This document shows, piece after piece, positions 6,101 to 27,401 of a stretch of 31,913 nucleotides of DNA (the stretch's first letter is position 1; every line of letters begins with the position of its first letter). The position numbers and the translations under genes are program-made. The notes below the pieces were generated by a model, which was not told the DNA's origin, ran no database searches, and worked only from the letters and a program-made list of their open reading frames with translations. The DNA comes from a virus. The stretch lies in IMG/VR virus record IMGVR_UViG_3300009001_000048, positions 1 to 31,913 of that record; one strand, written 5' to 3'.

Positions 6101-6771
6101 GGGCAGGTATTGGTGGCGGTGGTGCTGTTAAGATTATCTGGGGTGCACAGACATATCCAAACACAGGTGCTCAGTTCGTAACTGACGGGGCAGATCTTAA
6201 CGTTGTAATATCTGAGGTTATCAAGTTTAACAACGCTGGTAATATTCAGTACACCTACTTCTTGTACCCAGACGGATCGCTAAACAATACAACTGGTCCA
6301 AACTACCAGCCACTGCTCTCGCTAAGGCTCTCACCTTCGGCAGACTCTGGTCTCACTGGTAAACTGGGTGATCGAGACATTATCAACCGAATGCAGGTAC
6401 GTATGCGTGAGATTGGTGTATCGACTACAGAGCTAGTTGAGGTAAAGCTAATTCTTAACGGACGACTTAACAACCTTGGCTTTACTAGTCAGCCAGCACC
6501 ATCACTTGTTGAGCTTGTTGAGCACACTCCACAGGATACTATTTCTGGTGGAATCCAGGTGTATAACTTCCAGGCAGAGGGTGGTACCAATGGAGACAAG
6601 GCCACTACGACAGTCGATATTGATACACTGTTTGAGCTTTCAAACTCAATTCTTGGTGGAGATAACATCTTCCCAGATGGCCCAGACATCTTGACGGTCT
6701 GTGTTTCACGTCTAACTGGTAATGAAACTAGAACTTCGGCTAAGCTGTCATGGGGTGAAGCTCAGGCCTAA
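193..6771 (+). CDS. Giant modular tail fibre/adhesin-like virion protein (2192 aa)
   Basis: Probable virion surface protein for host attachment. The start at 193 has AAGGAG at 178-183, nine bases upstream. Order of parts: a beta-rich N-terminal region (about 1-200); a first glycine-rich domain (about 205-423); about ten divergent modules (about 513-1730) marked by an HGF/HGL-type motif, a glycine-containing turn, a YYV strand and a D-x-N/T-hydrophobic strand; a second glycine-rich domain (about 1733-1984) opening with YTTPGTYSWTAPEGVNEVSV and closing with GGGAVKIIWG; and a non-repetitive C-terminal domain (about 1985-2192) ending in LSWGEAQA. From memory, the HGF/YYV modules and the TWTAP...IIWG domain recur in virion proteins of marine and freshwater phages. 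No catalytic motif, signal peptide or membrane segment was seen. It is coupled to the upstream glycine-rich gene by a TAATG overlap. The fibre role is inference; structural family membership is fairly secure. Confidence 0.75.
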   Translation: MAIDITGAGTTGSHYLRRVNVNPEQNYVYFRDKDIPATLVSGDSYIYADGIGSIVGLGELVYAETTTSRTVRFRDINDVVQDITGATAGAVTLNFPYLYNSQLNVGLTTASNQAVKYYTNGTPLTGLTVGETYFLKNVSADFTGADELYNMDADTHTFTSAGVTGRVGPDYATLQAEYSSASWASSYITEGDYQGYQDWTVPISGVYEFEAKGASGHNSGVGQVGRGAIVRGRVELTKGELITIAVGQRGEAPTSGVIGGSGGGTFIVRKAGNQPLFVAGGGSANTDVTGNYREGKDGQLTTRGGVGAFEAAGGEEGLGGPSAGGVSSGGGGFFSTGSDSNYQTGSTWRPTIYAAPGGGGFINGLSHDVSDIGPAGGFGGGGVTDQTLFGQSGGGGGYSGGAGARTGASDYSGGGGGSYIDPQATNVATSNGTYEDLGTLGGEPISNIGAYHTGDGEVTVTLVQSFTSGNELYPTAQDAADGTNRINIEAQGTSLHSLIPINYDIDADVIYSTTPHNFDAGQAIAFDLANPSSDISTSAVYYVNYVDDYTYGLTYSPAVNFTTPMGRSSTDAVRRIVVNLDLNSLNIPNHGFLEDQPIQYDTGGGAPIEPLVNGATYYVAEIIDINNIRLKNALDSPLPIDFTAAGIGSDHSFIFLTVNTTENTLYILNHGLVSGQKVRYDNNGGTSVPGVTQNTVYYVQKVDDSTIRLTTDPDNQNIVNLTGVGTGTHSLVIQALNYVDNIITLPSHGFLQGELVEYSSRGQTEIDGLTSSQTYYVIFIDGDNLKLAASADDAEDGIAIDFTDTPLGSGRHTLTSLSQTPDGIYTIKSIPSDDTFLVEARGQVAELVKTFNPRATVAIDIDAFYVPGHGFVTGTKLHYDAGVGGSAIGGITDDTDYYVVPFNQDFFRLATSVENAQSGVYESVSDFGAGITHSFTSDQLNGTVVGNGSVSVQAGSILVNGTGTSFSKILKVGDPFTLYPPDAGAVFGFTDANVDTANNRINVPHTFTTGDFVRFETNGGVAPTPLINTYYYYVGVIDSNNFQLYPSYDSAISGVGFITLTSTGSGTEFTLSAVEPRGPIVRRITAIGSDTQITVDRPYSSAFSLVQYAYPTFVYVRPSGYSLHRPFDGGVEMSTGAGNSWGQIIRQTRKYFRYQSGKGIQTSFAINFKPSVDIMSMRRLSATTVECITRRPHGLISGLFIQVAEAQDSTGEQSTVYNGEFQVTVDPVDLTKFTIVTNQTVPEGIEARAYGFPQFHVTSWVNGALRSGMFDFQNGMFFEFDGQKLYCVRRSSTQQTAGTVSALRGSELVFGDKTQFTAQFNAGDNIVMRGQTYRIIDVQDDTTMSVRPEYRGATGLEITFDPQTQIDVGTNVFTVVRHGLSQRLPLLYNSIDGDPIGGLINGNTYYADVIDANTFRLFAAPDSETNVNISNTGTTNVHSFVPAKSGIIVTKTVDTKVPQEEWNIDTCDGNGPSGYDLDLSRIQMCYMDYSWYGAGKIRFGFKSKDGQVRYVHEFKHNNILFESYFRSGNLPARYEVTTFENPTFIPSLFHWGTSVIMDGRFDDDRGYLFTAGSQTLDVSGTTTKSFAADGINLTTSLITSLSHGFRTNDIVQFQSIASDGFPGTDTQNPLTEVVGENTLPYLTNNAKYKVLVNSQDLIHLVPEDATIFTFDDFDGGIRTRQDGATVTVTAKGHGFTTGDYIGVYGSDRITNGAAEITVIDADTFSYQIFESAEYTTPGTYSWTAPEGVNEVSVVAVGGGGGGNRGNSVNAGGGGGGGLGWKYSVPVTPGESYTVVVGSGGNRDTDNDGGYNSTNGGNSYFISTGIVAGLGGTRGQEGSGGAGGGFVGDGGGNGGRGGNSDGDDAGGGGGAGGYTGNGGQGGDPDQNGGNGSGGAGGGSGSADSGDGSGGGGGVGIDGQGASGLGSSETSFWTEGGGGGSGGANGTRGQSPRGDGGAFGGGGGGADSNNDWAGIGGGGAVKIIWGAQTYPNTGAQFVTDGADLNVVISEVIKFNNAGNIQYTYFLYPDGSLNNTTGPNYQPLLSLRLSPSADSGLTGKLGDRDIINRMQVRMREIGVSTTELVEVKLILNGRLNNLGFTSQPAPSLVELVEHTPQDTISGGIQVYNFQAEGGTNGDKATTTVDIDTLFELSNSILGGDNIFPDGPDILTVCVSRLTGNETRTSAKLSWGEAQA
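805..1458 (+). repeat. Glycine-rich domain 1, GGT-repeat DNA
   Basis: Codes for residues about 205-422 of the 2192-aa protein. It opens GVYEFEAKGASG, has regularly spaced GGGS and GGGG runs (VAGGGS, GGGGGYSGGAGA) and closes with GGGGGSYIDP. This pattern resembles the glycine-rich domain family also known from ALK-type receptors and bacterial surface proteins. At DNA level it contains many (GGT)n runs shared with bases 5389-6144 and with the left-edge fragment, so these stretches could recombine or slip. Confidence 0.7.
1729..5388 (+). repeat. Series of about ten HGF/YYV beta modules
   Basis: Divergent repeats within the 2192-aa protein. HGF-like motifs occur near residues 513 (PHNFDAG), 589 (NHGFLED), 668 (NHGLVSG), 747 (SHGFLQG), 867 (GHGFVTG), 1004 (PHTFTTGD), 1192 (PHGLISG), 1377 (RHGLSQR), 1603 (SHGFRTND) and 1693 (GHGFTTGD). 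Several are followed about 20-30 residues later by YYV or YYA and then a D-x-N/T-x-[RK]L strand. Spacing is irregular (roughly 75-190 residues), and the copies have diverged enough to rule out a recent tandem expansion. Confidence 0.7.
5389..6144 (+). repeat. Glycine-rich domain 2 (TWTAP...IIWG type)
   Basis: Codes for residues about 1733-1984. It begins YTTPGTYSWTAPEGV, continues with VSVVAVGGGGGG, a LGWKYSVPVTPGESYTVVVG strand pair and NSYFISTG, and closes GGGAVKIIWG. The order of these signatures matches a glycine-rich domain that I recall as common in virion proteins of aquatic phages. GGT/GGA runs dominate the DNA and create spurious long open frames on both strands. Confidence 0.75.
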
Positions 6772-6797: not shown

Positions 6798-6806
6798 TGA
6801 TAAAAT
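6798..6806 (+). promoter_or_regulatory. Extended -10 promoter TGATAAAAT for the 6814 gene
   Basis: TG-A-TAAAAT matches the extended -10 pattern found before six other genes here. It ends seven bases before ATG 6814, so transcription would begin at the A of the start codon and give a leaderless mRNA. No -35 element was recognised. It also argues against ATG 6805, which overlaps the -10 itself. Confidence 0.5.
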
Positions 6807-6813
6807 GGGTTAT

Positions 6814-9800
6814 ATGGCCACTCCATTAAATGCATATGCTACTAAGGTTTTTGCAGAGCATCCTTTAGCTCTATGGGCACTCGATGAGCAGCTAGACTAT
6901 ATTTCTCTTTTTCCATCAGCCTCTCAAGATCTTTCTACATGGCTTAACCTTGGTGTAGATAGTGTGGTAGATGCAACAGATCAGAATGTTTTTGAAATAC
7001 CCCCACCGACTGCACCATTGCCAGACGTTCCAGTAAATGGAATAATTGCCTCTGCAGGTAATGGCGGTTTTGTTAGTATGGTTAGCCCGTTCACGCTCCA
7101 GCCCACAGACTTTAGCGACAAGATTAAAACTTTTTCTTTTGGGCTATACTGCTATACATATTCCAAACTGTTAAATGTCAAGGTTGGGTATACGTATACA
7201 GATTTGGGCACTGGCCAAAGTGTACCTCCAATACTAAAGCCAGCTGCAATAGGATCTAGCCTTGCGTGGTCTTTTGTCTCAGAAACATTTACCGTACCTT
7301 CAAACTTTGAAGATCTTAAGCTCGTTATTGAAATTGAGTATAACTTCACAGCCGACAATGATGAATTTGTTTTGGTTGGCTTAACAGCTGGACAGTGGGC
7401 AGAAGAGTTTCAGTTAAAGTCATACGGCATCGCCATTGACGATCTTCCAACTGGATTAAATTTGCCAGCACAAAAAGCGGTAGAGGCATTTTCTTATGGA
7501 TTTGATTCAGTTCCAGGGTACTACATTGTTGACAACAACTATCTATACTCTAGAAACAATGGAACGCCAATTGTTTATGGTTCGTCTAATAGCACAAAGC
7601 TAACCCCAATAGCAAATTGCCCCTCGCTTGTAGTTCCTGGAATGGGATTTCTTAATGAGTCTGGAAGATATAACTCTTTGACTGCTGAATTTTGGGTCAA
7701 CATTGAAAACAACTCCAGCGAGCCAAGAAGAATTTTTGGTCCAATATCTTCTACAGATGGTTTGTATGCAGATGGTCCATATATTAAAATTAAAGTAGAT
7801 GGCAATACAGCAGCACACTATGTTGGAACTTGGAACAGGCCAATGCTGATTAGCTTTATTTATTCCGCCAAAAGAATGGCTCTTATTCTTAACGGAGAGG
7901 TAGTCATTGATCAGCAGATAAACGCATCTACGATTTCTTTGCCAGAAAGAATTGATCAAGGAAATGAGCAGGATTGGCTAGGGTTTTATGCCTATGACGA
8001 TGTGCCTTCCATACTTATTGATTCTGTTGCCATCTATCCATATGAGGTGCCAGCAATTGTAGCAAAGAGAAGGTGGGTCTATGGTCAAGGTGTTGAATAC
8101 CCAGCAAATCTAAAAGGCATCAATTCTGCAAATTCTGTAGTAGCTGATTTTTCTGTAGCCAAGTATGCTAGAAATTATTACTTTCCATCTTCTGCTGGTT
8201 GGGAAAGTGGTATTGTAGAAAATCTTGTAATTGATAGAGACAATCTAGTTTCACCATCACATCCATTGCCTTTGTTTAATTTTAGTGCAAAGTCAGAGTC
8301 TGAATGGTTTTCTGAACTAGAGGATGCACAGGACATTCTCACAGACCCCTACATCTCTTTGAGGCCAAACACGGATTGGTCCAATGTTGAGGGGCACATG
8401 TATTATGATAATATTAATTTCTTGCAAGAAGATACAAAAGCGTTTTACGGAATATTTGAAACCAGCTTTGACTCAATGCTTAGAGAGACACTCTTTGAAC
8501 TAACTAGCACAATTACTTCTAACAAGATTTCAGTTTATCTGGAAAACAATGTTATTAGTTACGTCCTGTCTATTAAGCAATCAGATGGAACATTCTCAGA
8601 AGAGGTTTTGTATTCTGCACTCGGTCAGAGGGTTGGAGACAGATTCTTAGTTGGACTAGATTTAGAAAAGTTTGTTAGATATTATGGCAACAAAGTAGCA
8701 TCGTTCTTTGGGTCAAAAAGAAAGATATCCATGTTTGTCGGCGGATCGTCAAATCTATCAAATACTTTTAATGGAAAGATTAGAAGGATTAGCTTTTGCA
8801 ATGCTAGAAATCTAGTCAAGATCCAGCACTTCTTTAGTGAAAGAGGAGTTCCTGTAGATTACGAAAACGTCTTTGATTTGTTTACTGGTGGTGTTTATGA
8901 TGCTGGAGACGAATACTTTGGTAACGATAGCAACTACTGGTCACTAATTCTTGACGGGGGAGACCCATACGACTTTGTTACAATTAGCACAGAAGAACAC
9001 ACAGCAACGTACAATCTAGTTCCAAAGTTTGAGCTAGGCAATTTTGTGTTGGACATTGCAACCAGCTCTTACTGGGAAAATTATGTCCCGCTATCTTACT
9101 TTGCCAAAGATGTACCCGATGCATACGGACAGCCACGCCAGAAGCTAGATTTCTTGCAATTCAACTTTGACTTCCTGAGAGCAAACTCTTTTGACGGAGA
9201 TTACTTTAATACCAACGGTTCGGTCGTAAAGGCATATGTTTCTTTTCAGCCTATTAGTAGTGGTGCTAATGCTTTGCCAGGTAGCCTTTCTACAGTTAAA
9301 TTACATAAAAATAATTCAGTAGTCCCAGGGTCTGAGTGGGTAAATTCAAAATACGAAGTGTTAGAGGGAACAGTAATATACCCACCATCTGGAACTAATT
9401 TTAATCAGCTTTCAATCAATGTTCACTTAGAAATTGTCGTTGACGGTGTCAATTCGAATCCATTTAGGCTAAAGTCTTTACAGCTATCGTCCCAAGCCTT
9501 TGGTGCATTTTCAAATAAGATTGGCTCTAGATTTGGTGCCGACATTATTCCGTTTACTAAAAAGGGTAACTACTTTGAATATCAGACAGCCCCAGCCTTT
9601 TCTATTTATAAGGGCAGCACCCCATATATGTATTTGACAGACAACTCTGGTTTTAAGATCAGCGGAAACTATGAGTCGTCACCGATTAAGGGTATAAGTA
9701 TGCCCATCAATAAAGACGCTGCTGATTTTTATAAACTAAGTAACATTCAGATGTGTTTGAGGTATGACGAAGAGTTGATGCCAGAAGTTCCAGTTAAGCT

Positions 9801-10419
9801 TTTTGAGCTAAAGTCTGCACTCCAAACAACGAGCTTCTACTTGATTTCGGATAGTGTTGATAGAACAAGGGGACAGATCTACGCACTTAATGATGACACC
9901 AAGAGATTGCAAAACAACCTGGTATTTTTCGTTAACGGTAAACCGACAAAACGAGGAATTATTTACCCCAAAACCTGGTCCTACCTGAGTCTGTCATTTC
10001 CAAATAGACTTAGCTTTGAAGGCACGGTCGGTGCATTAAGGTTTATGAGTCCAATTATGTTTAACAACGTTTCAATTTATGAAACAACAATTGCAGACGA
10101 CGAAGAGCGTTTTGGTTTTAGGCAGTGGTTCTCCGTACGTAATTCTGGCGGACAGGACTTTGATTGGGGATACTGGGCTGGTAAAGAGCTTGTAGGTAAT
10201 GAAGTGGTAGTGATACCCGATGCAGGATTTACCTGGCAAGAGGTGCTATTCCTGGCGGCATCCCAGGTACAAGAGGTTGATGCCGAGGTTATCTACAATG
10301 TATTTACTGGTACATCCAGGATCATTGCTGGTGATGATCAGGTCTTAACAATCAGAGATTATCAATATAATGCTTATAACGAACTAGCATGGTCACAAAA
10401 TACGGTGAGTGCCGTATAA
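6814..10419 (+). CDS. Minor tail protein with lectin-like (LamG/ConA-like) regions (1201 aa)
   Basis: Large structural protein, probably in the tail tip or side fibres. The chosen start is ATG 6814 (MATPLNAYATK), because a promoter -10 ends seven bases before it; the in-frame ATG 6805 would lie inside that promoter. The N-terminus (AEHPLALWALDEQ) has the look of actinophage minor tail proteins. Three regions resemble concanavalin/laminin-G sandwiches: about 286-420 (SLTAEFWVNIE, ALILNGEVV, LIDSVAIYPYE), about 515-663 (KISMFVGGSSN, GKIRRISFCNARN) and about 939-1100 (LVFFVNGKPTKRG, FNNVSIYETTIAD). Such folds commonly bind carbohydrate, so a role in cell-wall glycan recognition is plausible but inferred. 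No enzyme motif was seen. It is not coupled to the upstream fibre, having its own promoter, and ends just before a tandem promoter for the next gene. Confidence 0.7.
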   Translation: MATPLNAYATKVFAEHPLALWALDEQLDYISLFPSASQDLSTWLNLGVDSVVDATDQNVFEIPPPTAPLPDVPVNGIIASAGNGGFVSMVSPFTLQPTDFSDKIKTFSFGLYCYTYSKLLNVKVGYTYTDLGTGQSVPPILKPAAIGSSLAWSFVSETFTVPSNFEDLKLVIEIEYNFTADNDEFVLVGLTAGQWAEEFQLKSYGIAIDDLPTGLNLPAQKAVEAFSYGFDSVPGYYIVDNNYLYSRNNGTPIVYGSSNSTKLTPIANCPSLVVPGMGFLNESGRYNSLTAEFWVNIENNSSEPRRIFGPISSTDGLYADGPYIKIKVDGNTAAHYVGTWNRPMLISFIYSAKRMALILNGEVVIDQQINASTISLPERIDQGNEQDWLGFYAYDDVPSILIDSVAIYPYEVPAIVAKRRWVYGQGVEYPANLKGINSANSVVADFSVAKYARNYYFPSSAGWESGIVENLVIDRDNLVSPSHPLPLFNFSAKSESEWFSELEDAQDILTDPYISLRPNTDWSNVEGHMYYDNINFLQEDTKAFYGIFETSFDSMLRETLFELTSTITSNKISVYLENNVISYVLSIKQSDGTFSEEVLYSALGQRVGDRFLVGLDLEKFVRYYGNKVASFFGSKRKISMFVGGSSNLSNTFNGKIRRISFCNARNLVKIQHFFSERGVPVDYENVFDLFTGGVYDAGDEYFGNDSNYWSLILDGGDPYDFVTISTEEHTATYNLVPKFELGNFVLDIATSSYWENYVPLSYFAKDVPDAYGQPRQKLDFLQFNFDFLRANSFDGDYFNTNGSVVKAYVSFQPISSGANALPGSLSTVKLHKNNSVVPGSEWVNSKYEVLEGTVIYPPSGTNFNQLSINVHLEIVVDGVNSNPFRLKSLQLSSQAFGAFSNKIGSRFGADIIPFTKKGNYFEYQTAPAFSIYKGSTPYMYLTDNSGFKISGNYESSPIKGISMPINKDAADFYKLSNIQMCLRYDEELMPEVPVKLFELKSALQTTSFYLISDSVDRTRGQIYALNDDTKRLQNNLVFFVNGKPTKRGIIYPKTWSYLSLSFPNRLSFEGTVGALRFMSPIMFNNVSIYETTIADDEERFGFRQWFSVRNSGGQDFDWGYWAGKELVGNEVVVIPDAGFTWQEVLFLAASQVQEVDAEVIYNVFTGTSRIIAGDDQVLTIRDYQYNAYNELAWSQNTVSAV

Positions 10420-12463: not shown

Positions 12464-13810
12464 ATGACTATGTTTAAAGCCCATTGGAATACAGAAGGCG
12501 ACGCCGTTCGCCTCTCTATGCCATTCAGTAAAGTTGATGAAGAGAGACGTATCGTCTCTGGTTTCGCTACCCTAGATAACGTAGATCGTCAAAACGACAT
12601 CGTTACTTCCGATGCTTCTCTTAAAGCATTTGAAAAATTCCGTGGTAACATCCGTGAAATGCACCAACCCACTGCAGTTGGTAAAATGGTCAACTTCAAA
12701 GAAGATAAGTACTTTGACCCAGAGTCAAAGAAATTCTATAGCGGTGTTTACGTATCCGCATATGTATCTAAGGGTGCACAAGACACTTGGGAAAAGGTTC
12801 TTGATGGCACTCTTTCTGGTTTCTCTATTGGTGGCAAGATGAACGACTGGGATGATGCATATGACGAAAAGATGGACACACAGATTCGTGTCATTAAAGA
12901 TTACGATCTTGTAGAGCTTTCCCTTGTGGATTCCCCCGCTAACCAGTTTGCCAGCATCCTTTCTGTAGAAAAGGTTGATGGTGTAGACGTCATCAAAGGT
13001 GAAGGCGTCGAGACAGTTCTCGAAAATGTATTTTGGGATGAAGCAAGTGGCTTGGTTATGCTTTCAGAAAACGAGGCTGAGATTAGCCCCACTTCTGGAA
13101 ATGCAATGACTAACATTGGATTTGTTGAGAAAAACGACAATGAAAAACAAGACATGATAAAGTTCTTAGTTGATAGTGCTAAAGGCATTGATTCTTCTAA
13201 GATAACAAAGGAGGTAAGTCCTATGACTGATGAAACAACTAACCTCGAAGAGGTTGTAGAAAAATCAGATGAGGTCGCTCCAGAGGCAGATGCCGCAGCT
13301 GAAAGCGTTGAGGTTGTCGAGGAAGCTGTAGCAGTCGAAGAGGCTGTTACAGTCGAGAAGGCAGACGATGCTGAAGCAGAGGTCGAGGTTGAGAAGGCCG
13401 AGACTACTGATGACGCCGAATCAGTCGAAAAAGCTGACGAGGTTGTTGAAGAAGCTGCTGAGGTGTCCAAGTCAGATGACGTTGCTGCTAACGCAGTTGC
13501 CGATATCAAAGACACTATCACATCAGCCTTTAGCGATCTAGCAGATACCGTAAAGGCGTTACACGCCGAGGTAGATGCACTAAAGAAGTCAATTACTGGA
13601 GTATCCGAAGAGATCTCTGCAGCCAAGCAGGAGATTTCAGAAACAAAGGGCCAGTTTGATGAGTTTGGAAAGAGAGTCGATGCTGTAGAGCACGACACAG
13701 CTTTCCGCAAGTCTGGCGATCTTGGCGAGATCGTGCAGGAACAACCAGAAATGGTTGAAAAATCCCTATGGGGCGGTCGTTTCCTCAAAACTGCCGACTT
13801 ATTTAATTAA
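12464..13810 (+). CDS. Prohead protease (XkdF-like) fused to a scaffold domain (448 aa)
   Basis: The N-terminal part (about 1-180) looks like an XkdF/HK97-type prohead serine protease of herpesvirus-protease fold, which trims scaffold and capsid subunits during maturation. Signatures: RRIVSGFATLDNVDRQNDIV, likely catalytic His67 (REMHQP), likely catalytic Ser121 in LSGFSIGGKM, and DLVELSLVDSPANQ. The C-terminal part (about 254-448) is a very acidic E/V/A-rich stretch followed by a coiled coil (about 345-410) and a conserved-looking end, EKSLWGGRFLKTADLFN. This is typical scaffold architecture, so one gene carries both functions. An internal in-frame start at codon 254 has an excellent ribosome binding site. 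ATG 12464 was chosen as nearest the predicted RNA start; ATG 12470 is an alternative. The protease call is strong, the scaffold call is well supported by composition and position before the capsid gene. Confidence 0.85.
   Translation: MTMFKAHWNTEGDAVRLSMPFSKVDEERRIVSGFATLDNVDRQNDIVTSDASLKAFEKFRGNIREMHQPTAVGKMVNFKEDKYFDPESKKFYSGVYVSAYVSKGAQDTWEKVLDGTLSGFSIGGKMNDWDDAYDEKMDTQIRVIKDYDLVELSLVDSPANQFASILSVEKVDGVDVIKGEGVETVLENVFWDEASGLVMLSENEAEISPTSGNAMTNIGFVEKNDNEKQDMIKFLVDSAKGIDSSKITKEVSPMTDETTNLEEVVEKSDEVAPEADAAAESVEVVEEAVAVEEAVTVEKADDAEAEVEVEKAETTDDAESVEKADEVVEEAAEVSKSDDVAANAVADIKDTITSAFSDLADTVKALHAEVDALKKSITGVSEEISAAKQEISETKGQFDEFGKRVDAVEHDTAFRKSGDLGEIVQEQPEMVEKSLWGGRFLKTADLFN
13207..13225 (+). 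promoter_or_regulatory. Internal ribosome binding site and ATG for a nested scaffold protein
   Basis: AAAGGAGGT at 13207-13215 is a near-perfect match to the 16S rRNA anti-Shine-Dalgarno. It is followed after seven bases by ATG 13223, which is in frame with the protease-scaffold gene (codon 254). It is stronger than the site before most other genes here and falls at the boundary between protease and scaffold regions. Confidence 0.75.
13223..13810 (+). CDS. Nested capsid scaffolding protein from internal start (195 aa)
   Basis: Predicted separate product made from codon 254 of the protease-scaffold gene. It begins MTDETTNLEEVVEKSDEV, is strongly acidic for about 90 residues with repeated VEK/EEA/EKA units, then forms a probable coiled coil (KALHAEVDALKKSITGVSEE and following) and ends in the short basic and aromatic segment KSLWGGRFLKTADLFN. 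Lambda makes its scaffold Nu3 from a start inside protease gene C, so a nested scaffold has precedent. Here the supporting signal is the strong internal ribosome binding site at 13207-13215. It would let the phage make many scaffold copies per protease copy. The C-terminal end probably contacts the capsid protein. Expression as a separate protein is inferred. Confidence 0.6.
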   Translation: MTDETTNLEEVVEKSDEVAPEADAAAESVEVVEEAVAVEEAVTVEKADDAEAEVEVEKAETTDDAESVEKADEVVEEAAEVSKSDDVAANAVADIKDTITSAFSDLADTVKALHAEVDALKKSITGVSEEISAAKQEISETKGQFDEFGKRVDAVEHDTAFRKSGDLGEIVQEQPEMVEKSLWGGRFLKTADLFN

Positions 13811-15032: not shown

Positions 15033-15049
15033 ATATGTGGGAGGAAAAA

Positions 15050-15469
15050 ATGACATCAGAAAACATTGTGCCAGCTACCTTAGTAGCTGACGAACCATTG
15101 ATTCCAAAAGAGACAGCAGAAAAGCTACAAGATTATTTAGAAAACAAAAAGACTTCTGAGCACCTGGAAGAGACAACAGCCATCACTGTACCAAACAAGG
15201 GTGGTAAGAAAAAGTCTTCTCTGGGTGGGGTAGCCAATAGCGATACTATTGGTCTAGCAGAAGAACCTGCTAAAAAGCCAGCCACAAAGGCTAAGGCAAA
15301 AAAGGCAACCGTTGCTATTTATTCAGAAAGAAATATGCGATGGAGCGACGTGGGAGAGATTAAAAAAGGGTATAACATTGTGTCTCCACAAGCAGCTGAA
15401 AAATGGCTCACACGTAAGCATGTGAGAGAGGCTACGCCAGAAGAGGTTGCTTCAGAATATGGAGCATAG
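15050..15469 (+). CDS. Small head-proximal protein with Lys/Ala linker (139 aa), function unknown
   Basis: Two parts: an acidic N-terminal half (about 1-60) and a compact C-terminal domain (about 92-139, ATVAIYSERNMRWSDVGEIK, KGYNIVSPQAAEKWLTRKHV, ending EEVASEYGA), joined by a basic linker rich in lysine and alanine (KKPATKAKAKKATV). I do not recognise a named family. Start is ATG 15050, five bases after GGGAGG; the earlier in-frame ATG 15035 lies only two bases past the -10 and could not be on the RNA. Position between capsid and connector genes suggests a head decoration, minor capsid or connector function. The basic linker could touch packaged DNA, but this is a guess. Confidence 0.75.
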   Translation: MTSENIVPATLVADEPLIPKETAEKLQDYLENKKTSEHLEETTAITVPNKGGKKKSSLGGVANSDTIGLAEEPAKKPATKAKAKKATVAIYSERNMRWSDVGEIKKGYNIVSPQAAEKWLTRKHVREATPEEVASEYGA

Positions 15470-18100: not shown

Positions 18101-18151
18101 TAATTCGAGGAAACGCGCCTACTACTTCAATAGAAAGAAGAGGTGACAACT

Positions 18152-18796
18152 ATGGCATATTCACGCGGTTCAAGTGCGAATATTATCGTTGGTGCAGCAG
18201 CATTGTTCACTTACGACAATGGAACACTAACTGACGCTGACCTGCCAGACGTTGTGGAAGACCTAACCTACAAAGACACTTTGCAGGATGACTTAGGTTT
18301 CCGTAACGTCGGTTACACCATGAACGGTCTTGAGATCGTGTTCCAGCCCGACTTCGGTGAAGTTCAGGTTGACCAGCTACTCGACGTTGCCAAGCTTTAC
18401 AAGCAGGGTATGCAGGTTAATCTAAACACCGCTTTCGCAGAGTCCACACTCGAAAACCTTCTGTTTGCCGTTGCTGGTAAGGACACTGACCTTGCAACTG
18501 CTGGTGTAGGAGAGTTTGCAGAAGCAAACCCAGTAATGACTATGTCCGCTGGTGACATTGGAGAATGTCCCGTCGAGCGTGGTCTTGTTGCTGTTGGTCC
18601 AGGTACAGGTGACTGTGCAATCGGTCAGGGTATTGAGCGTATTTACGTTGCATACCGTGCTCTCTCCATTGAGAGCGTTACAGTTTCGGCTAAGCGTGAC
18701 GAACCCACAATGTTTGAGGTTTCGTTCCGTCTGCTCCCTAACGATGACGCTTCTTATGGTAAGATTGTTGACCGTACACTCAACCTAGTATCATAG
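18152..18796 (+). CDS. Major tail tube protein (214 aa)
   Basis: Polymerises into the hollow tail tube around the tape measure. Typical siphovirus tube features: N-terminus AYSRGSSANIIVGAAALF, a beta-rich body (GFRNVGYTMNGLEIVFQPD, VQVDQLLDVAKLYKQG) and a C-terminal strand set (EPTMFEVSFRLLPNDD, IVDRTLNLVS). Start ATG 18152 is preceded five bases upstream by GAGGTGA (18140-18146); an in-frame GTG at 18143 lies inside this site and is rejected. All eight arginines use CGN codons, as in the capsid gene, showing high expression. The gene has its own promoter and a strong terminator, so it is an isolated single-gene unit. Identity is supported by composition, length and position before the chaperones and tape measure. 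Confidence 0.85.
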   Translation: MAYSRGSSANIIVGAAALFTYDNGTLTDADLPDVVEDLTYKDTLQDDLGFRNVGYTMNGLEIVFQPDFGEVQVDQLLDVAKLYKQGMQVNLNTAFAESTLENLLFAVAGKDTDLATAGVGEFAEANPVMTMSAGDIGECPVERGLVAVGPGTGDCAIGQGIERIYVAYRALSIESVTVSAKRDEPTMFEVSFRLLPNDDASYGKIVDRTLNLVS

Positions 18797-18809
18797 TCAT
18801 AAGTTAACA

Positions 18810-18846
18810 AAAACAGCCCAGGTTAACCCCTGGGCTGTTTTGTTTT
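18810..18846 (+). terminator. Strong intrinsic terminator after the tail tube gene
   Basis: AAAACAGCCCAGG (18810-18822) and CCTGGGCTGTTTT (18829-18841) form a perfect 13-bp stem around a TTAACC loop, followed by TTTTGTTTT. It is a textbook Rho-independent terminator. Its U-tract runs straight into the extended -10 of the next gene. Confidence 0.92.
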
Positions 18847-18854
18847 GCTATACT
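18846..18854 (+). promoter_or_regulatory. Extended -10 promoter TGCTATACT for the long tail chaperone
   Basis: TG-C-TATACT begins on the last T of the preceding terminator. It ends six bases before ATG 18861, so RNA would start at or next to the A of the start codon. There is no Shine-Dalgarno sequence. It is the weakest -10 match of the set (C in place of A at position five). Confidence 0.6.
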
Positions 18855-18860
18855 TGTTAG

Positions 18861-19538
18861 ATGGCAACTAAAATTTATGATGTAGCAACTGTCGAGCTAA
18901 TTGATGGCACACCAATAGAGATTAAACCATTAAAGATTAAGTATCTTCGAGAGTTTATGGAAGTCTTTGATCTAATTAAATTGGCGGTCAATGATGATCA
19001 GGCAATCAGACTGCTTGCTGAATGCACAAGGGTAACCATGAGACAGTTTTATCCATCCATTCAAACAATTGAGCAACTAGAAGACAGCGTAGACCTTCCA
19101 ACAATTTATAAAATTTTAGATGTTGCAGCAGGAATTAAGATTGATGATCCAGACAGAGAGGTAAAGAAGCAAGCAACAGAGAGTGGATCAACTTGGAAAG
19201 ACCTTGATCTTGCAGAGCTAGAGTCTGAGGTGTTTTTGCTAGGTATCTGGAAAGATTATGAAGAGCTTGAGCTTTCTCTTTCAATGCCAGAATTAATTGC
19301 CACTCTGGGATCTAAAAGAGATTTAGACTATCAAGAGAAGAAGTTCTTGGCCGCCATGCAAGGGGTAGATCTTGATAAGCAGTCTGGTAGCAACAACGCT
19401 TGGGAAGAAATGAAGGCTAGGGTCTTTAGCGGTGGACAAACTGATGATCCTAATGATATACTATCATTTCAGGGTACAAAGGCTGAACAAAACGGATTTG
19501 GCCTTGGCATGGGCTTGAAATATGAGAAAATTAATTAG
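18861..19538 (+). CDS. Tail assembly chaperone, long form (G-T type, 225 aa)
   Basis: Helps load the tape measure and tube subunits during tail assembly; not part of the finished particle in known systems. Two regions: an N-terminal G-like domain (about 8-96: VELIDGTPIEIKPLKIKYLR, LLAECTRVTMRQFYP, LEDSVDLPTIYKILDVAAGI) and a C-terminal T-like region (about 115-205: DLDLAELESEVFLLGIW, LSLSMPELIATLGSKRDLDY, QEKKFLAAMQGVDLDK). In most long-tailed phages the T part is added by a programmed frameshift; here both lie in one frame and I see no slippery heptamer at the join. Translation is apparently leaderless. Six of seven arginines use AGA/AGG, unlike the tube gene next door, suggesting low expression. 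The next gene is a paralogue of the N-terminal domain only. Confidence 0.8.
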   Translation: MATKIYDVATVELIDGTPIEIKPLKIKYLREFMEVFDLIKLAVNDDQAIRLLAECTRVTMRQFYPSIQTIEQLEDSVDLPTIYKILDVAAGIKIDDPDREVKKQATESGSTWKDLDLAELESEVFLLGIWKDYEELELSLSMPELIATLGSKRDLDYQEKKFLAAMQGVDLDKQSGSNNAWEEMKARVFSGGQTDDPNDILSFQGTKAEQNGFGLGMGLKYEKIN

Positions 19539-19545
19539 CCTATTG

Positions 19546-19554
19546 TGTTATAAT
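19546..19554 (+). promoter_or_regulatory. Extended -10 promoter TGTTATAAT for the short chaperone and tape measure
   Basis: TG-T-TATAAT, eight bases after the long chaperone stop. RNA would start near 19561-19562, leaving a leader of about 27 bases with AAAGGA (19571-19576) ahead of ATG 19588. It lets the short chaperone and tape measure be transcribed independently of the long chaperone. Confidence 0.65.
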
Positions 19555-19587
19555 TGATAGTGCCCTTATGAAAGGAAAAACAATAAA

Positions 19588-19902
19588 ATGGCAACGATGA
19601 ACGAAGCTAAAAAAGTAAAACTAATTGACGGGACAGAGATTGTAGTCCGACCCTTAAAGGTCTCATTGCTCAGAGAATTTATGTCCAAATTTGCAAAGAT
19701 CGCTGATGTAGCAGAAGATAACGACAAGTCAATGACACTGCTTATGGAGTGCGTACAGATTGCTATGAAGCAGTACAAGCCAGAGATGGCTGATGACGTT
19801 AAGACTTTGGAAGATAACATTGACCTTCCTACTGTCTACGAAATTGTTGAAGAGGCCTCGGGTATCAACATGACTAATATGGGCAATATGCTAGCCCAAT
19901 AA
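19588..19902 (+). CDS. Tail assembly chaperone, short form (G type, 104 aa)
   Basis: Paralogue of the N-terminal half of the preceding gene: both share LIDGT, PLK, LREFM, EC, LED, DLPT and GI in the same order, about 35-40% identical by eye over 90 residues. It stops after the G-like domain with no T region, and only 20 bases separate it from the tape measure, so there is no room for a frameshifted extension. It probably supplies the more abundant G protein, with the long gene supplying G-T. It has a conventional leader with AAAGGA and its own promoter. An ATG at 19568 is in another frame. A tandem duplication followed by loss of one C-terminal half is the simplest origin; that is inference. 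Confidence 0.8.
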   Translation: MATMNEAKKVKLIDGTEIVVRPLKVSLLREFMSKFAKIADVAEDNDKSMTLLMECVQIAMKQYKPEMADDVKTLEDNIDLPTVYEIVEEASGINMTNMGNMLAQ

Positions 19903-19922: not shown

Positions 19923-22900
19923 ATGGCTGAAACTAATGCCAATATTAACATAAATGCGGATACGTCGCAAGCATTAGCGGCCATCAAGAATCTTCAACGA
20001 TCCCTTTCTGGTCTTTATACCAACATGAGCAAGGGCAGCGCTGCTGCTCAAGCTAAAGTTGCTGGTTTTCAGCAAAACCTAGTTAATAGTATTAATGCGA
20101 CTGGTCAGTTTACTGCCAAGCTAACAACTGTTAGAACCACTACAGAAGCATTTACTAACGCCCTAGAGAAAAATAAACTTTCTCTAGGGCAATACTTTAA
20201 GTATGGCACCGCTGCCTCTAAGCGTTTTGGCAAAACCTTTTCTACCGAGTTCAACACCATTGAGAAGGTAGCTAGAGAGCGCGTTAAAGATCTCCAGACT
20301 CAGTACATTAAGATGGGCCGTGATGCAAACGGTGCCATGAAGGCAATTGCTGTTAGGCCAACCACTCTTAATATGAAAGACCTTGGCACTCAGACTGCCA
20401 TCGCTGCTCAAAAGCAACAGATATTTAATCAGCTTATTAAGCAGGGTTCCACAAATCTTCTAAACTGGGGTAAGAACACGCAGTGGGCTGGTCGACAGCT
20501 CATGGTTGGTTTTACAATCCCTCTGACTATCTTTGCCACTCAGGCTGGTAGATCATTCATGCAGCTTGAGCAACAAGCAATTAAGTTCCGTCGAGTTTAT
20601 GGAGACTTGTTTACAACTGGTGCTCAAACCGATCAGGCACTTGCCGACATGCGTAAGCTGGCAGAAGAGTTTACCAAGTTTGGTGTTGCAGTTGAGCAAA
20701 CCGTAGGACTTGCTGCAACTGTAGCTCAGATGGGTAAGACTGGTGCCGACCTAACAGCACAGGTTACAGAGGCCACAAGGTTGTCAGTTCTGGGAGGTAT
20801 GACTCAGGAGCAAGCACTAAACACAACTATCGGTCTGACCAATGCATTTGGAGTTTCTGTAGAAGATCTAACTAATAAAGTTAACTTCCTAAACGCAGCA
20901 GAAAACCAAACCATTCTTTCTATTGACGACTTTAACGAAGCAGTTCCTCGTGCTGGTAGTGTTGTCTCACAACTTGGTGGAGACGTAGAAGATCTCGCAT
21001 TCTTCCTTACCGCTATGCGTGAAGGTGGTGTTAATGCATCCCAGGGTGCTAACGCCCTAAAGTCATCTCTGGGTAGGTTGATCAACCCAACACAGAGGGC
21101 TAGAGATCAGCTTGCCGATTATGGCATTAATATTTTGGGTATCGTAAACGAGAACTCTGGAAACCTAAGAGAGACAATCCTTGTGCTAGCAAGAGAGCTG
21201 GACAAGCTTGATCCTCTTGATAAAGCAAGAGCTATTGAGACACTGTTTGGTAAGTTCCAGTTTGCAAGAATGTCAACCCTTTTCCAAAACATTATTTCCG
21301 AGGGTAGCCAGGCAAGCACAATTCTTGGTTTAATTAATAGCGAAGCTGGAGACCTTGCTTCGATTGCTGGACGAGAGCTTGCCAGAGTGGAAGAGTCAGC
21401 TGCTACAAAGTTTACTGCAGCTATCGAAAGATTCCAATCCGCCCTGGCACCAATCGGAGAAGAGTTCTTAAGGTTAGCAACACCAGTTATTGAGTGGGCC
21501 ACTGGACTCCTTGAAAGATTTAACGAGCTGGGAGAAGGCGGTAAGAGGTTTGTAGTTCTTTTGCTCGGTGCAATTGGTGGTATCGCACCAGTGCTACTTA
21601 TGGTTATTGGTCTAACAGCCAACCTAGTTGCTAACTTTATTAAGGGTATTGCAACAATTAGTCAGTTCATGGGTAGGTTTAGGGGTGCCTCTCAAAACCT
21701 AGCCGAGCAAACAAACTATATGAACTCAGAGCAGATTGAGTCTGCGGCCATTGCATCCTCGCTAAATCAAACTCACCAAACACTAACCCAAACCTTTACT
21801 CTTGAGACACAAGCTCTTACCCAGCTGGCTAACGCTTACATGAAAGCAGCCAACACAGCAAAGCAATTTAGAGGACCTATCGTAACAGATGGTGGAAGGA
21901 CAATCAAGGCTCCAGGATTCATGAAGGGCAAGATGGTTCCTGGCTACAAAGATGGTGTTGTTTCAGTTCCTGGACCAAAGGGTGCTGGCGACATTCAGCC
22001 AGCCATGCTGGCTCCTGGCGAAGCTGTAATCCCAGCAGACATGGCAAAGAAGTATGGTCCACTAATTAATGCAATGATCGCTGGCAACATTCCTGGCTTC
22101 GTTAATGGCAAGGGTGCCGCAGCGGGAGCATTTGTTAGCGACATTTCTGGCAGGGCCTCAACCGAAAGAGGCAAGGTAGCGATTGAAAAACTACTGCTAA
22201 GAGATCTTGCAATGCTAGAGAAGGCAGAAGACGCAGTCGTTCAAGAGTTTATGGAGTTCGTGCAAGGGGTTGCAAACGAAACAACCAACATGACAAAGGC
22301 AGTTCTAGATAGAGCACTAAAGGACAACCAGCAGCTTATTGAAAAGTATAGAGACGCTAGGTATTTGCAACAAAACAAAGAGCAGTTTGCACATGTTGGT
22401 GCTAGGACAGAAATGCCAGTTTCTGAATTTGCAGCAGCAGACACTCTGGTTGCTGGAAGGGCTGGCCTAAAGCAAGATATTGACCTAGTATCACGTATGA
22501 TTCCAGAAAAGGTTATTAAGCTATACCACGGCCTCGGTATGGACATTACGGGATCTCTTAATGAACAGATGGGTAATGCTGGAGCACAGATCCAGCAGCT
22601 GAGTGCAGATATTTCTCAAAGAGGCATTGAGGCTTACAGAAAAGCAGTCACCATTGGTGGCGGCGTATTTGATGACATAGCACCAGCACTGCAGCAACTA
22701 GATGCCAATGTTCAGCAAGGCTTGCAAGCCGCATACGACAATGGAGCACAGTACGTTGTCGACACAAGGGCAGACCTCGAAAGACTACGCCAAGAGGCCG
22801 ATGGCACTTTTGATGAAAGCCTTTATGTTGTTTTTGAAGACATTCAAAATGATGCATTAAGAAACGTAACGGTAATGGGCGATGAGCTTCAAGAGATTTT

Positions 22901-25900
22901 TGAGGTTGCGAGAAACAAACTTACAGAACTAAGAATGAGCTTTAACAGGCAAGACATTGACACGCTAATGCAGACTCCAGAAGGTGCAGACTTTGTCAGC
23001 AGAAAACTTACAAATGCTGACGGTAGCTATCGCACATCAATGTCGGTCAGTGCTAGAAGTGCCACGGGACTGGGTGCATTCCCAGGATCTTACGAAGCTG
23101 GTAGAGACACTGTACTAAGAGGTCAGCAAGAGTTCGATAGAGGTGCCAAAGATGCGGGAAGAGTTGCTTCGCCATCGAAAGAAAGCTACGAAGTGGGACA
23201 GGCACACTCTGATGGATTCGTACAGGGTGCTATTGAAAATGTTGACGAAGCCAGAACAGCTGGTGATGCAATTGGAGAGGCAACCACGGCTGGATCACGT
23301 ATCAATATGGGACGTGGAAGAAGAGCAGTAAGATCACAAGACGGCACTGTAACAGTTGCACAAAACAATCAGGTTATTTCGAAGCAGACACCAGCACAAA
23401 TTGCACATGCTGCAGCATTGGCCAAAGCAACAACTAGTGCACAGAACTTTGGTGCCAAGGCTGGTAAAGCAGCTACGACCCTTTCAAATATGGGCGGCAA
23501 ACTTACTGGTGTGGCATTCGGACTCTCTGGTCTTGTTGGTGCATTCTCCATGGTAGATGGTCCACTGGGAGACTTTTCTGCTAAGATGTTCCCAGCAATC
23601 AGCGTAATTACTGGTCTTACCATGTCAATGCAGATGCTTAACACTGCCACGTTGGCCAATGTCGTTTCTAAGAGAGCGGAGGCTGCTTCTCTGGCCTTCC
23701 TGGGGGCACGAGCTGCCGCAACTGGTGGATTGCTTACCAAGATGGGTGGATTCATTAGGGGCATTGGTTTGGCAATAGGTGCAGCACTTGGCCCAATTGG
23801 TCTCTTGGTTGCTGGTCTTACCGTACTTGCTGCAGGCATTTTTGCATTGTTTAAGATTGCAGAAAACGAAAAGCAAAAACTTATCGACATGGGTAATGCT
23901 GCCAAGCTAAGTGCAGATCAGCTTAACTCTCTTGCTAACGCTGGAATTAATCTTAGAACTTCTGGCTTTGCTACCGCTCCAGAACTCGCCACCGTCGGTG
24001 GTAGACAGGTAGACCCAAGCATTGTTCAGCAGCTAAGAAGTTCTGAAGAGTTCTTGAATTCCTGGGGGCCAACTATTGAAAGCCTTAAGGATGCTACACA
24101 GGCACAGGGTGAGCAAATGCTTGCAAACATTGCTGTTCAAATTAAGGCACTTGGCGGAACGGAAGATGAGGTAGCACAGGTCATTGCTGCTATTCAGCAA
24201 GAGGCAGAGAGAACAGAGCTTTCGCTTGACTTTAAAGCAATTGACATTTCTTCTCCACAAGTTCGCCAAGAAAGAATGGCTGGAATTGCAGAAAGGGCCC
24301 AGGGATATCAGGGGCAAATTTCTGCGGCAGCGTCAAGAGCTGGTATGGGAGCTGGAGACGTTACGCAAGAAACAATGGGCATGAATCTTGGAGGCAGGGC
24401 TGCAGCTCAGACTGGGACTCTATTGGCGGGAGATATCTCATCTCAGATTGTTGCACTAGAAGCTCTTAGACAAGAAGGAACACTAACTACAGCAGAACTG
24501 CAGAAAGAGTTTAGAGATCTTTCTGGAATCATCAAAGACATGGAATCTCCTGGTGCACAGTTCGAGGTGTTTGATCAGGTTCTTGCTAATCTTAATCTTG
24601 ACGAAACTCTTGGCGGTATTGACGACATCAACATGGCAATGGCCCTATTAGAACAACAAGCCTTGGGACTTCAGATTTCTTCTAACGATATTGCACTATT
24701 TGAAGCAGCCAGTGCAGACGGTGCCGATGCTGAAACAATTCGTTTTGCTAACATGAGGTTGGATTCGATTAATCGTACCAATGCCGCTCTTGCTGAACAA
24801 AAGAGGGTAGAGCAAGAAGCAGCGGAAGCAAAGGCACTTAGAGACGCTGACGTTGAAGCAGCTCTAACCAGCATTGACGAAGAGATTAAGGCCCTAGAGA
24901 ATCAATCAGCTGCCTACCAGTTCCTGATGGATGCAGAGTTTTCAGAAGCAGAAGCAAAGGCTCTTGCTGGCAATGCCTCTTACGCTCGAGCAATTGCTGC
25001 AGCAGCAGAACAAGATGCTATCAATGGAACAACGGAAGCCAGTGACGAGCTATTGGCTAGCATCAATGCTTTGCGTGAGGCTGGAAATCTTCCAGGTATT
25101 GAAAAGACAAGTCTTGGCGGCAGAAGCGGCGGCGGTGGCGGTGTAGAGACATCACCATTCGATGAAATCACCAAGAAGCTTAGACTATTCAACAATGCAC
25201 AAGTAAGCGTTACAGAAGGCTTTGACGATACTATGGCTGCAATTAATAAGTTTATGAATGTCAATGGTCAAATGTCTAGACAATTCAACGGACTTAACAA
25301 GCAGCTAAACAGCCTTGGTCTCAACGAAAACCTAATCGAAATGATTACTGGCATGGATCCAGACGAATACGAGAAGCGAAAGAATGAGCTATTTGTATTT
25401 GACGACCAGGGATCTATCATTGGCATGACCGCTAAGCTGCAAAGTCTTAACGATGCTCTAAACATGGCCACTATCGGTGAATTTATTGATGAGCAAAACA
25501 ACATTACAGTTAGTGTTGGAAACCAGATTACTGCTCTTAATAGGCTAACTTCCGCTGGTGCCAGTTATGAGGCAGCCTATAGAGCGGTACAAAATACTGC
25601 CCTGGCTGCAGCTATTTCCACAGCCAAGAGTTCCGCCGAGATTCAGGCAGCTGCTGAGGCAGCCATGAGGGCTCAGGAAATGATGGAGAAGTTTGAGCAG
25701 GTTAACGAAGAAGAGATGCGTAAGCAGAGAATCGCTGATGCTGTTAAGAACCAAAACAAAGAATTTGCAAACCAGGCTAAGATTCTAAACTACATTAATA
25801 AGAATAGGAGCAAGCTTTCAGAGGCTCAGATCGAAAGCATCCTTTCTGATAAAGACCTGCAGTCACTGGTCCTAGAGCCCAGCATCGCTCCAGGGGCACT

Positions 25901-27401
25901 ACAAAGAGCTTTGGACAATGCAAACAAGCAAGCAGAACTAGAGCTTAAGATTAAGAAGCTCACAACTTCTGGTCAAGAAGAGATTTTCCAAGACGGCTTT
26001 GACAAGGCAATGGAATCGTTTAACGTTCAAGAAAACAAGATCGAGCTTGAGTTTGAAGCCAAGATGGCCAAAGAGCAATCGATCATTGACGTAGCAGAGC
26101 AAGACATTGCCAAGCTTGAGTTCATGCTTGATGACTACGAGGCTGGACTAGAAGAAATTGATCGCCAAGAGCAAGTTATTAATGATGCATATGACAAGAG
26201 ATATGAAGCTCTAGATAGAATTGCTGATGCCAATGCCGAAATTACCAGACAACAGCAGAGCCAGCTAGACATCGCAGACGCACTTAGCCGTGGTGACATT
26301 GCAGCAGCCGCCAGGGCGGTACAGGAAGCAAGAGCAGCAGCCGCAGAGGCATCTGTAGAAGATGAAAGAGCAAGGCTTGAGAGGGCACAGGCATCCCAGG
26401 TTGCTGGACTAACTTCTCGAGGCGGTCTGACTAGAGACCAGATTCAGGATAGAGTCAGGGGTATCGAAGAGCAAATCTTCCGCATCGAAGAAGACAGGCT
26501 TGAGCCAGCACAAGAAGCAATGCGTCTTGCAGAAATTCAAAAAGAAGCAGACATTGAAGCACTAGAAGTTTTGGGCAAGACCAAGAAAGAGTGGGAAGCC
26601 ATCTCTCAGCGTATCGATGAGGCAAGAATTAATAACTACAAGTTTGTAGACGCTATGAAAGAAGCACTTGATATTGTTGAAAAGCTTGTAGAGTCCTTGG
26701 GTAAGGGTCCAGTAATTGCAGCACCAGCACCAGCACGAGCACCAGCAAGAAGTAGTGGTGGCAGAGGTTCTTCAAGCAAACCAGCTCCAGCCCCAACCCC
26801 ACCAAAGCCACCCCAACCAACAAATAGAGATGACGACCCTCCGAAAAGAGTGGAATCGTCTGTCCAAAGAGCGGCAAAAGAGGTTATGTCCGCAGCGGCA
26901 ACACTTAAGAAAACACAAACAGCTCCAGCAATTTCAATTAGGCAAGTAGAGAATGCATCAGCAAAGTTGAAGTCTGCTCAGTCAAGACTAAGGGCAGCAC
27001 AGATAGCTGCAAAAAAGCCAGCTAGCTCAGCATATTTGTACCGAGCTATGGGTGGTTTTGTTCGCAAGGCATATTCTGGTCCCCCACAGCAGTTTGCACA
27101 AGGAGGCCTTGTTTCTAACTTTATTACACGTATGGCTTCTGGTGGTTTCTCTATGGGGTCGGACACTATCCCCGCAATGCTAACCCCTGGAGAATTCGTA
27201 ATTCGCCGCCCAGCTGTTCAAGGAATGGGTGTCAAGAATCTCGAAAAGATTAATCGTGGTGAAAATATTGGCGGTAGCGTGTATAATTATAACTTGAACG
27301 TTAATGTAAGATCTGAATCAGATCCTAACCAGATTGCACGTAGCGTAATGTCTAGCATTAGACAAATTGAGAACAAGAGGATTAGAGGTAATAGGTTCTA
27401 A
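19923..27401 (+). CDS. Tail tape measure protein (2492 aa)
   Basis: Sets tail length and passes into the host envelope at infection. A TP901-type tape measure core spans about 181-456 (TQWAGRQLMVGFTIPLTIFA, VEQTVGLAATVAQMGKTGAD, GGMTQEQALNTTIGLTNAFG, MREGGVNASQGANALKSSLG, ETLFGKFQFARMSTLF). Hydrophobic, probably membrane-spanning segments lie at about 542-573 and 1276-1315. Two related Gly/Pro modules carry the typical ending IPAML-T/APGE-x-VI: about 664-730 and 2373-2447. A long coiled coil at about 2035-2260 contains the RGDIAAAARAVQEARAAAAE type of sequence I associate with actinophage tape measures, followed by a Pro/Ala linker (about 2266-2315). No peptidase or lysozyme motif was recognised. 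Start ATG 19923 has GAAGGG at 19908-19913. The stop overlaps the next start. By the usual rule of about 0.15 nm per residue, the tail would be roughly 370 nm long. Confidence 0.93.
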   Translation: MAETNANININADTSQALAAIKNLQRSLSGLYTNMSKGSAAAQAKVAGFQQNLVNSINATGQFTAKLTTVRTTTEAFTNALEKNKLSLGQYFKYGTAASKRFGKTFSTEFNTIEKVARERVKDLQTQYIKMGRDANGAMKAIAVRPTTLNMKDLGTQTAIAAQKQQIFNQLIKQGSTNLLNWGKNTQWAGRQLMVGFTIPLTIFATQAGRSFMQLEQQAIKFRRVYGDLFTTGAQTDQALADMRKLAEEFTKFGVAVEQTVGLAATVAQMGKTGADLTAQVTEATRLSVLGGMTQEQALNTTIGLTNAFGVSVEDLTNKVNFLNAAENQTILSIDDFNEAVPRAGSVVSQLGGDVEDLAFFLTAMREGGVNASQGANALKSSLGRLINPTQRARDQLADYGINILGIVNENSGNLRETILVLARELDKLDPLDKARAIETLFGKFQFARMSTLFQNIISEGSQASTILGLINSEAGDLASIAGRELARVEESAATKFTAAIERFQSALAPIGEEFLRLATPVIEWATGLLERFNELGEGGKRFVVLLLGAIGGIAPVLLMVIGLTANLVANFIKGIATISQFMGRFRGASQNLAEQTNYMNSEQIESAAIASSLNQTHQTLTQTFTLETQALTQLANAYMKAANTAKQFRGPIVTDGGRTIKAPGFMKGKMVPGYKDGVVSVPGPKGAGDIQPAMLAPGEAVIPADMAKKYGPLINAMIAGNIPGFVNGKGAAAGAFVSDISGRASTERGKVAIEKLLLRDLAMLEKAEDAVVQEFMEFVQGVANETTNMTKAVLDRALKDNQQLIEKYRDARYLQQNKEQFAHVGARTEMPVSEFAAADTLVAGRAGLKQDIDLVSRMIPEKVIKLYHGLGMDITGSLNEQMGNAGAQIQQLSADISQRGIEAYRKAVTIGGGVFDDIAPALQQLDANVQQGLQAAYDNGAQYVVDTRADLERLRQEADGTFDESLYVVFEDIQNDALRNVTVMGDELQEIFEVARNKLTELRMSFNRQDIDTLMQTPEGADFVSRKLTNADGSYRTSMSVSARSATGLGAFPGSYEAGRDTVLRGQQEFDRGAKDAGRVASPSKESYEVGQAHSDGFVQGAIENVDEARTAGDAIGEATTAGSRINMGRGRRAVRSQDGTVTVAQNNQVISKQTPAQIAHAAALAKATTSAQNFGAKAGKAATTLSNMGGKLTGVAFGLSGLVGAFSMVDGPLGDFSAKMFPAISVITGLTMSMQMLNTATLANVVSKRAEAASLAFLGARAAATGGLLTKMGGFIRGIGLAIGAALGPIGLLVAGLTVLAAGIFALFKIAENEKQKLIDMGNAAKLSADQLNSLANAGINLRTSGFATAPELATVGGRQVDPSIVQQLRSSEEFLNSWGPTIESLKDATQAQGEQMLANIAVQIKALGGTEDEVAQVIAAIQQEAERTELSLDFKAIDISSPQVRQERMAGIAERAQGYQGQISAAASRAGMGAGDVTQETMGMNLGGRAAAQTGTLLAGDISSQIVALEALRQEGTLTTAELQKEFRDLSGIIKDMESPGAQFEVFDQVLANLNLDETLGGIDDINMAMALLEQQALGLQISSNDIALFEAASADGADAETIRFANMRLDSINRTNAALAEQKRVEQEAAEAKALRDADVEAALTSIDEEIKALENQSAAYQFLMDAEFSEAEAKALAGNASYARAIAAAAEQDAINGTTEASDELLASINALREAGNLPGIEKTSLGGRSGGGGGVETSPFDEITKKLRLFNNAQVSVTEGFDDTMAAINKFMNVNGQMSRQFNGLNKQLNSLGLNENLIEMITGMDPDEYEKRKNELFVFDDQGSIIGMTAKLQSLNDALNMATIGEFIDEQNNITVSVGNQITALNRLTSAGASYEAAYRAVQNTALAAAISTAKSSAEIQAAAEAAMRAQEMMEKFEQVNEEEMRKQRIADAVKNQNKEFANQAKILNYINKNRSKLSEAQIESILSDKDLQSLVLEPSIAPGALQRALDNANKQAELELKIKKLTTSGQEEIFQDGFDKAMESFNVQENKIELEFEAKMAKEQSIIDVAEQDIAKLEFMLDDYEAGLEEIDRQEQVINDAYDKRYEALDRIADANAEITRQQQSQLDIADALSRGDIAAAARAVQEARAAAAEASVEDERARLERAQASQVAGLTSRGGLTRDQIQDRVRGIEEQIFRIEEDRLEPAQEAMRLAEIQKEADIEALEVLGKTKKEWEAISQRIDEARINNYKFVDAMKEALDIVEKLVESLGKGPVIAAPAPARAPARSSGGRGSSSKPAPAPTPPKPPQPTNRDDDPPKRVESSVQRAAKEVMSAAATLKKTQTAPAISIRQVENASAKLKSAQSRLRAAQIAAKKPASSAYLYRAMGGFVRKAYSGPPQQFAQGGLVSNFITRMASGGFSMGSDTIPAMLTPGEFVIRRPAVQGMGVKNLEKINRGENIGGSVYNYNLNVNVRSESDPNQIARSVMSSIRQIENKRIRGNRF

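Follow-up and report, generated by a model that had tools for sequence, protein, structure and literature searches.

Two paralogous genes for the predicted long and short tail assembly chaperones of a large group of long-tailed phages

How does a long-tailed phage obtain its two tail assembly chaperones, the short G and the long GT, from a locus in which no frameshift signal is seen? The question is raised by a 31,913-nucleotide stretch of viral DNA (IMG/VR record IMGVR_UViG_3300009001_000048, positions 1 to 31,913; hereafter the window), where a long gene, GT (18861..19538, + strand, 225 amino acids in a single frame), is followed by a short gene, G (19588..19902, + strand, 104 amino acids). 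The conservation of frameshifting in tail chaperone genes is taken as a sign that a fixed ratio of the two products is essential for tail assembly. The evidence presented here is comparative throughout, and it makes it quite probable that GT and G stand in place of a single ancestral gene that was read with a -1 frameshift, with duplication and two modes of initiation giving much G and little GT.

The two genes are paralogous, as had been proposed in an earlier, sequence-only reading of the window. GT and G share 42% identity over 98 columns (BLASTP, E=2e-24), covering nearly the whole of G and residues 1-96 of GT, and the six shared motifs named in that reading are present in both proteins. 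GT is made up of a G-like part (residues 1-97), a linker, and a T-like part (residues about 110-225). PHROG 10504 was matched by both GT and G, and PHROG 10474 only by the second half of GT; that the two halves of GT fall in separate PHROG families is a sign that most known phages encode them in separate frames. In the window and in 249 distinct relatives the pair consists of one short form and one paralogous long fusion, with T in the same frame as G and no frameshift of the lambda type.

The survey of relatives for the same split pair, suggested by the sequence-only reading, recovered it many times over. In a first survey, GT plus G was found at all 154 loci with both genes uncut by a contig end. 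In the final survey, at least 386 loci (249 distinct sequences) encoded an in-frame GT, then a separate G, and then the tape measure protein, 97 (58 distinct) encoded G and T by frameshift, 12 were incomplete, and 2 had single-frame breaks; these IMG/VR relatives were collected by similarity to the queries, as the best 80 per list, such that rarer intermediates could be missed. Eleven of the incomplete loci had GT alone or T plus G, which were contig-end cuts where examined, and one had a lone G. Two loci considered as alternative patterns (L356 and L438) each have one gene interrupted by a single-frame break, as an error of assembly or sequencing could produce. No surveyed locus combined a frameshift with a second G, and the two states are mutually exclusive among these loci. 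A local assembly quirk as the source of the split is ruled out by the 249 distinct loci. In the first 103 distinct split loci, GT was mostly 225-245 and G mostly 101-111 amino acids long, the gap between them was mostly 39-64 nt, and the tape measure gene followed about 20 nt after G. Judged by these sequences, the split pair is a trait of a large group of uncultured long-tailed phages and not only of the window.

The frameshift loci form a sister group, which was found as a large group by searches with L244, a relative in a metagenome-assembled genome (MAG). All 58 distinct sister loci, Stanwilliamsviridae phages of Streptomyces included, have a single G with T in the -1 frame, and 47 of them contain an in-phase CCCAAAN heptamer, mostly C_CCA_AAY. 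In L244 the G and T frames are separate and an in-phase C_CCA_AAC stands 40 nt upstream of where G ends, and in Coruscant (Stanwilliamsviridae) G and T lie in separate frames directly ahead of the tape measure gene. The single relative in the genome collection was a frameshift-type contig in a cyanobacterial MAG. The predicted shifted product of the sisters is about 205 amino acids long and has a linker homologous to that of GT; a sister junction such as ...KLNDPN-PTGSSSSWDELDL is homologous to IDDP...ESGSTWKDLDL of the window GT. The start region of the sister lineage consists of a hairpin and a leadered promoter with a Shine-Dalgarno sequence and a leader of about 18 nt.

In the split lineage, GT and G carry contrasting start signals. 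GT is preceded by a terminator-like hairpin with a T-run (18806..18844, + strand; predicted RNA fold -23.6 kcal/mol) and by an extended -10 element, TGCTATACT (18846..18854, + strand), whose 3' end lies 6 nt before the ATG. The hairpin is present in 149 of 149 relatives, with a median z of -6.3 compared with -0.5 for the region before G, and it should insulate GT from upstream transcription. The extended -10 element is in place before GT in 228 of 247 relatives, and in 111 of the 139 relatives with the motif the spacing between its last T and the ATG is 6 nt; a motif at this leaderless position without a Shine-Dalgarno sequence is found at 1.4% of all other ATGs. A Shine-Dalgarno sequence is absent before GT of the window and of all 247 relatives, whereas one precedes G in 249 of 249. 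For G of the window this is AAAGGA (19571..19576, + strand), behind an extended -10 element, TGTTATAAT (19546..19554, + strand), that lies inside the gap between GT and G. The near-consensus TGNTATAAT is found before G in 243 of 249 relatives, with a leader of about 21 nt. The two promoters and two initiation modes put forward in the sequence-only reading thus correspond to putative signals conserved in 249 distinct loci.

Transcription usually starts 7 nt past the -10 element, and for GT it would therefore begin on the A of the ATG. With an ATG start codon, a -10 element about 6-7 nt upstream of it, and no Shine-Dalgarno sequence, GT has the sequence features of a leaderless gene, and its mRNA probably starts at or next to the ATG. 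Leaderless initiation prefers ATG, and GT starts with ATG in 246 of 249 split loci, whereas TTG is the start codon of G in 39 of 58 distinct sister loci (L249, L277, and others), behind a good Shine-Dalgarno sequence; this difference fits that preference. Literature searches on leaderless starts of tail chaperone genes returned nothing to the point. Other genes of the window also have TATAAT very close to their start, with TTATAATATATG before 15035 (gene 15035-15469) and TATAAT shortly before 12464 (gene 12464-13810), and the window phage may often use leaderless or short-leader starts.

The same signals bear on whether the two genes are instead read from one long late transcript, the promoters being minor and the ratio coming from translation initiation alone, with no Shine-Dalgarno sequence at GT and a strong one at G. 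The short gap, the common strand, and the Shine-Dalgarno contrast just described would all fit such a transcript. However, a terminator-like hairpin before GT in every relative scored and a conserved promoter before G imply separate starts, and we consider a single transcript unlikely.

Phylogeny also favors the duplication proposed in the sequence-only reading. A tree of 143 G domains was built from few columns, so that its inner branching should not be interpreted; in it, the G domains of GT formed one supported clade (98/94), the separate Gs were set apart (100/97), and the frameshift Gs also stood apart. One odd label among the separate Gs is explained by L115, which had been misfiled as a frameshift locus and is a truncated split locus. 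The N-termini of the tape measure proteins likewise separated the split from the frameshift lineages (98). GT keeps a hairpin of the sister type and G keeps a leadered start, a pattern suggesting that the start region and G were duplicated together in tandem. Mean pairwise identity was 67.5% for G, 70.5% for T, and 55.3% for the G domain of GT. Greater conservation of G than of GT's G domain would be expected if G does the bulk of the coating and the G part of GT is partly relieved of it.

The separate clades, together with a difference at 58% of residues between G and the G domain of GT, point to long divergence, and could also mean that the separate G has been neofunctionalised, for instance to act as chaperone for one part of the very long tape measure protein, while the classical work is left to GT, alone or together with a truncated form. 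Yet the presence of a separate G coincides precisely with the lack of a frameshift, and no frameshift locus has one; its sequence is better conserved than GT's own G domain, and a signal for a truncated GT was not seen. A new function for G thus appears improbable.

Recoding within the split lineage was assessed from slippery heptamers. As the sequence-only reading had stated, no XXXYYYZ heptamer is in phase in GT or G of the window. Codons 85-125 of GT in the split relatives contained 39 such in-phase heptamers, mostly scattered A-runs, compared with 33.5 expected from synonymous shuffling, and a hidden slippery site in GT was not supported by this near-chance count. GT could still be recoded into a short product by a signal of an unrecognised kind (non-canonical ribosomal or transcriptional slippage), G then serving to top up the dose, and the family does appear to have non-canonical sites, as no canonical XXXYYYZ heptamer seems to be involved in the shift of the Streptomyces sisters. 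With heptamers in the join region so close to expectation and none in phase in the window, continued recoding has very little probability. As a separate observation on those sisters, the Streptomyces phages (L163, L325-L334) have a conserved CCCGGAA where their relatives have the CCCAAAC heptamer, and this is perhaps a non-canonical slippery site.

The assignment of GT and G as chaperones draws on their place in the genome, their homologues, and their predicted folds. The upstream neighbor of GT is the presumed major tail protein gene (18143..18796, + strand; PHROG 2175, an Ig-domain protein, E=4e-29), whose product has a weak major tail protein match and whose homologue at this position in Streptomyces phage Coruscant is annotated as major tail protein. 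Downstream of G is the gene for the tape measure protein (19923..27401, + strand, 2492 amino acids; PF10145, E=3e-26), which has its own Shine-Dalgarno-like GAAGGG; the 20 bases that had been counted between the stop of G and its start were confirmed. GT and G sit between the two. A tblastn search matched 127 deposited phage records, all of Streptomyces phages, at one place each and with identity below 60%. Among the records listed, the match was in two pieces, mostly across two consecutive genes, many of them annotated as tail assembly chaperones.

Structure prediction of both proteins, also suggested by the sequence-only reading, gave a fairly confident AlphaFold2 model of G (pLDDT 84), and in the model of GT (pLDDT 75) the elements of the G part follow one another as they do in G and are placed almost identically. 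Among the top viral fold matches of G (BFVD) is a tail assembly chaperone (A0A6J5QVP5, TM 0.77, E=3.8e-6), followed by lower matches with weak E-values to chaperones of Mycobacterium, Arthrobacter, and Microbacterium phages and to GT of N15. From gene order, homology, and fold taken together, these two paralogous genes of a long-tailed phage are identified as encoding its tail assembly chaperones, GT the long one and G the short one. That they are some other kind of protein, as the lack of a Pfam family for either and of an assigned function for the main PHROG families might suggest, is contradicted by their place before the tape measure gene, by the annotated homologues, by the sister group with its canonical -1 frameshift, and by the chaperone fold matches, and is hardly credible.

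We propose the following course of events. An ancestral gene of the frameshift type, encoding G and T, would have been duplicated in tandem, the first copy becoming an in-frame G-T fusion with loss of the slippery site and the second retaining G only. GT would now be expressed at low yield from its own promoter behind the terminator, as a leaderless mRNA. G would have a second promoter of its own, a leader, and a strong ribosome-binding site, giving high yield, and would also be translated from GT transcripts that read through. The result would be G well above GT, as is achieved by frameshifting in lambda. On the lambda model, the tape measure protein would carry a coat of many G and few GT, and the T part would recruit the major tail protein. 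That a whole lineage has swapped a near-universal recoding event for duplication plus contrasting, conserved initiation modes, with the ratio fixed by initiation, seems reasonably likely.

Several points weigh against this proposal. The G tree has no fixed root, so that the duplication could be older than the divergence of the two lineages, G having then been lost from the frameshift one. The codon bias of GT is real but mild: the codon index relative to the capsid and major tail protein genes is 0.468 for GT and 0.56 for G, most other window genes lie at 0.44-0.60, and third-position GC is lower in GT than in G at 118 of 143 loci. The sequence-only description of GT as leaderless and rare-codon-rich was therefore borne out for the leaderless-type signals and overstated for the rare codons. 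The likeness of G to a solved chaperone is weak, the two top PDB fold matches being to 2OB9 of HK97 (E=0.49, TM 0.46); the model of GT had no match in the PDB fold search, and the G profile, searched against PDB sequences, found chance matches only.

A large lineage without the frameshift beside a sister with it makes it testable whether selection acts on the ratio or on recoding itself. The locus would show in nature how gene duplication can take over from a recoding step, and would be a conserved natural use of leaderless versus leadered translation for stoichiometry. It is also a caution for annotation tools that expect a frameshift ahead of every tape measure gene. Elsewhere in the window, two large genes lie directly upstream of the head genes: one of 2192 amino acids with glycine-rich domains (193-6771; PF12810, PF21722) and one of 1204 amino acids without a Pfam family (6805-10419).

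The principle of two genes for the two chaperones is known already; as far as our literature searches reached, a siphovirus-like split lineage, its frameshift sister group, and the apparent leaderless/leadered contrast have not been described. The sequence-only reading had given frameshifting as the norm in long-tailed phages, and it overlooked the short-plus-long pair of T4-like phages. In some T4-like phages a short gene is accompanied by a long fusion gene, as reported by Vladimirov, Gautam and Davidson (2022) in the form cited in PMC10885494. By BLASTP, gp26 and gp51 of T4 matched each other with E=1.7e-6 over 161 columns. These are presumably the short and long chaperone genes meant. T4 is contractile-tailed and has genes 26 and 51 on opposite strands, whereas the window pair is tandem and directly before the tape measure gene; the window lineage differs further in its leaderless/leadered contrast and in having a sister lineage still on the canonical frameshift. 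No T4-like record turned up in the tblastn search of deposited phages, in which a direct comparison with gp26 and gp51 was not made, and the likeness to T4 is thus probably one of working and not of descent. In the T4 record (L336), gene 26 (4803-5429) has an annotated shorter product, 26', with the same stop, and this product together with gp51 may bear on how T4 makes its short and long chaperones. Microbacterium EA1 phages such as Figueroism are also said to use two separate genes (PMC11659878), in a paper that is silent on G/GT paralogy. In lambda, G and GT are made at about 30:1 by -1 frameshifting (PMC5009743). The closest comparison is with the sister lineage of Coruscant and the L244 group, which has homologous G and T parts, the same place in the genome, and the same inferred products, but which uses one gene and a -1 shift, mostly at C_CCA_AAY, where the window lineage has two genes and no shift.
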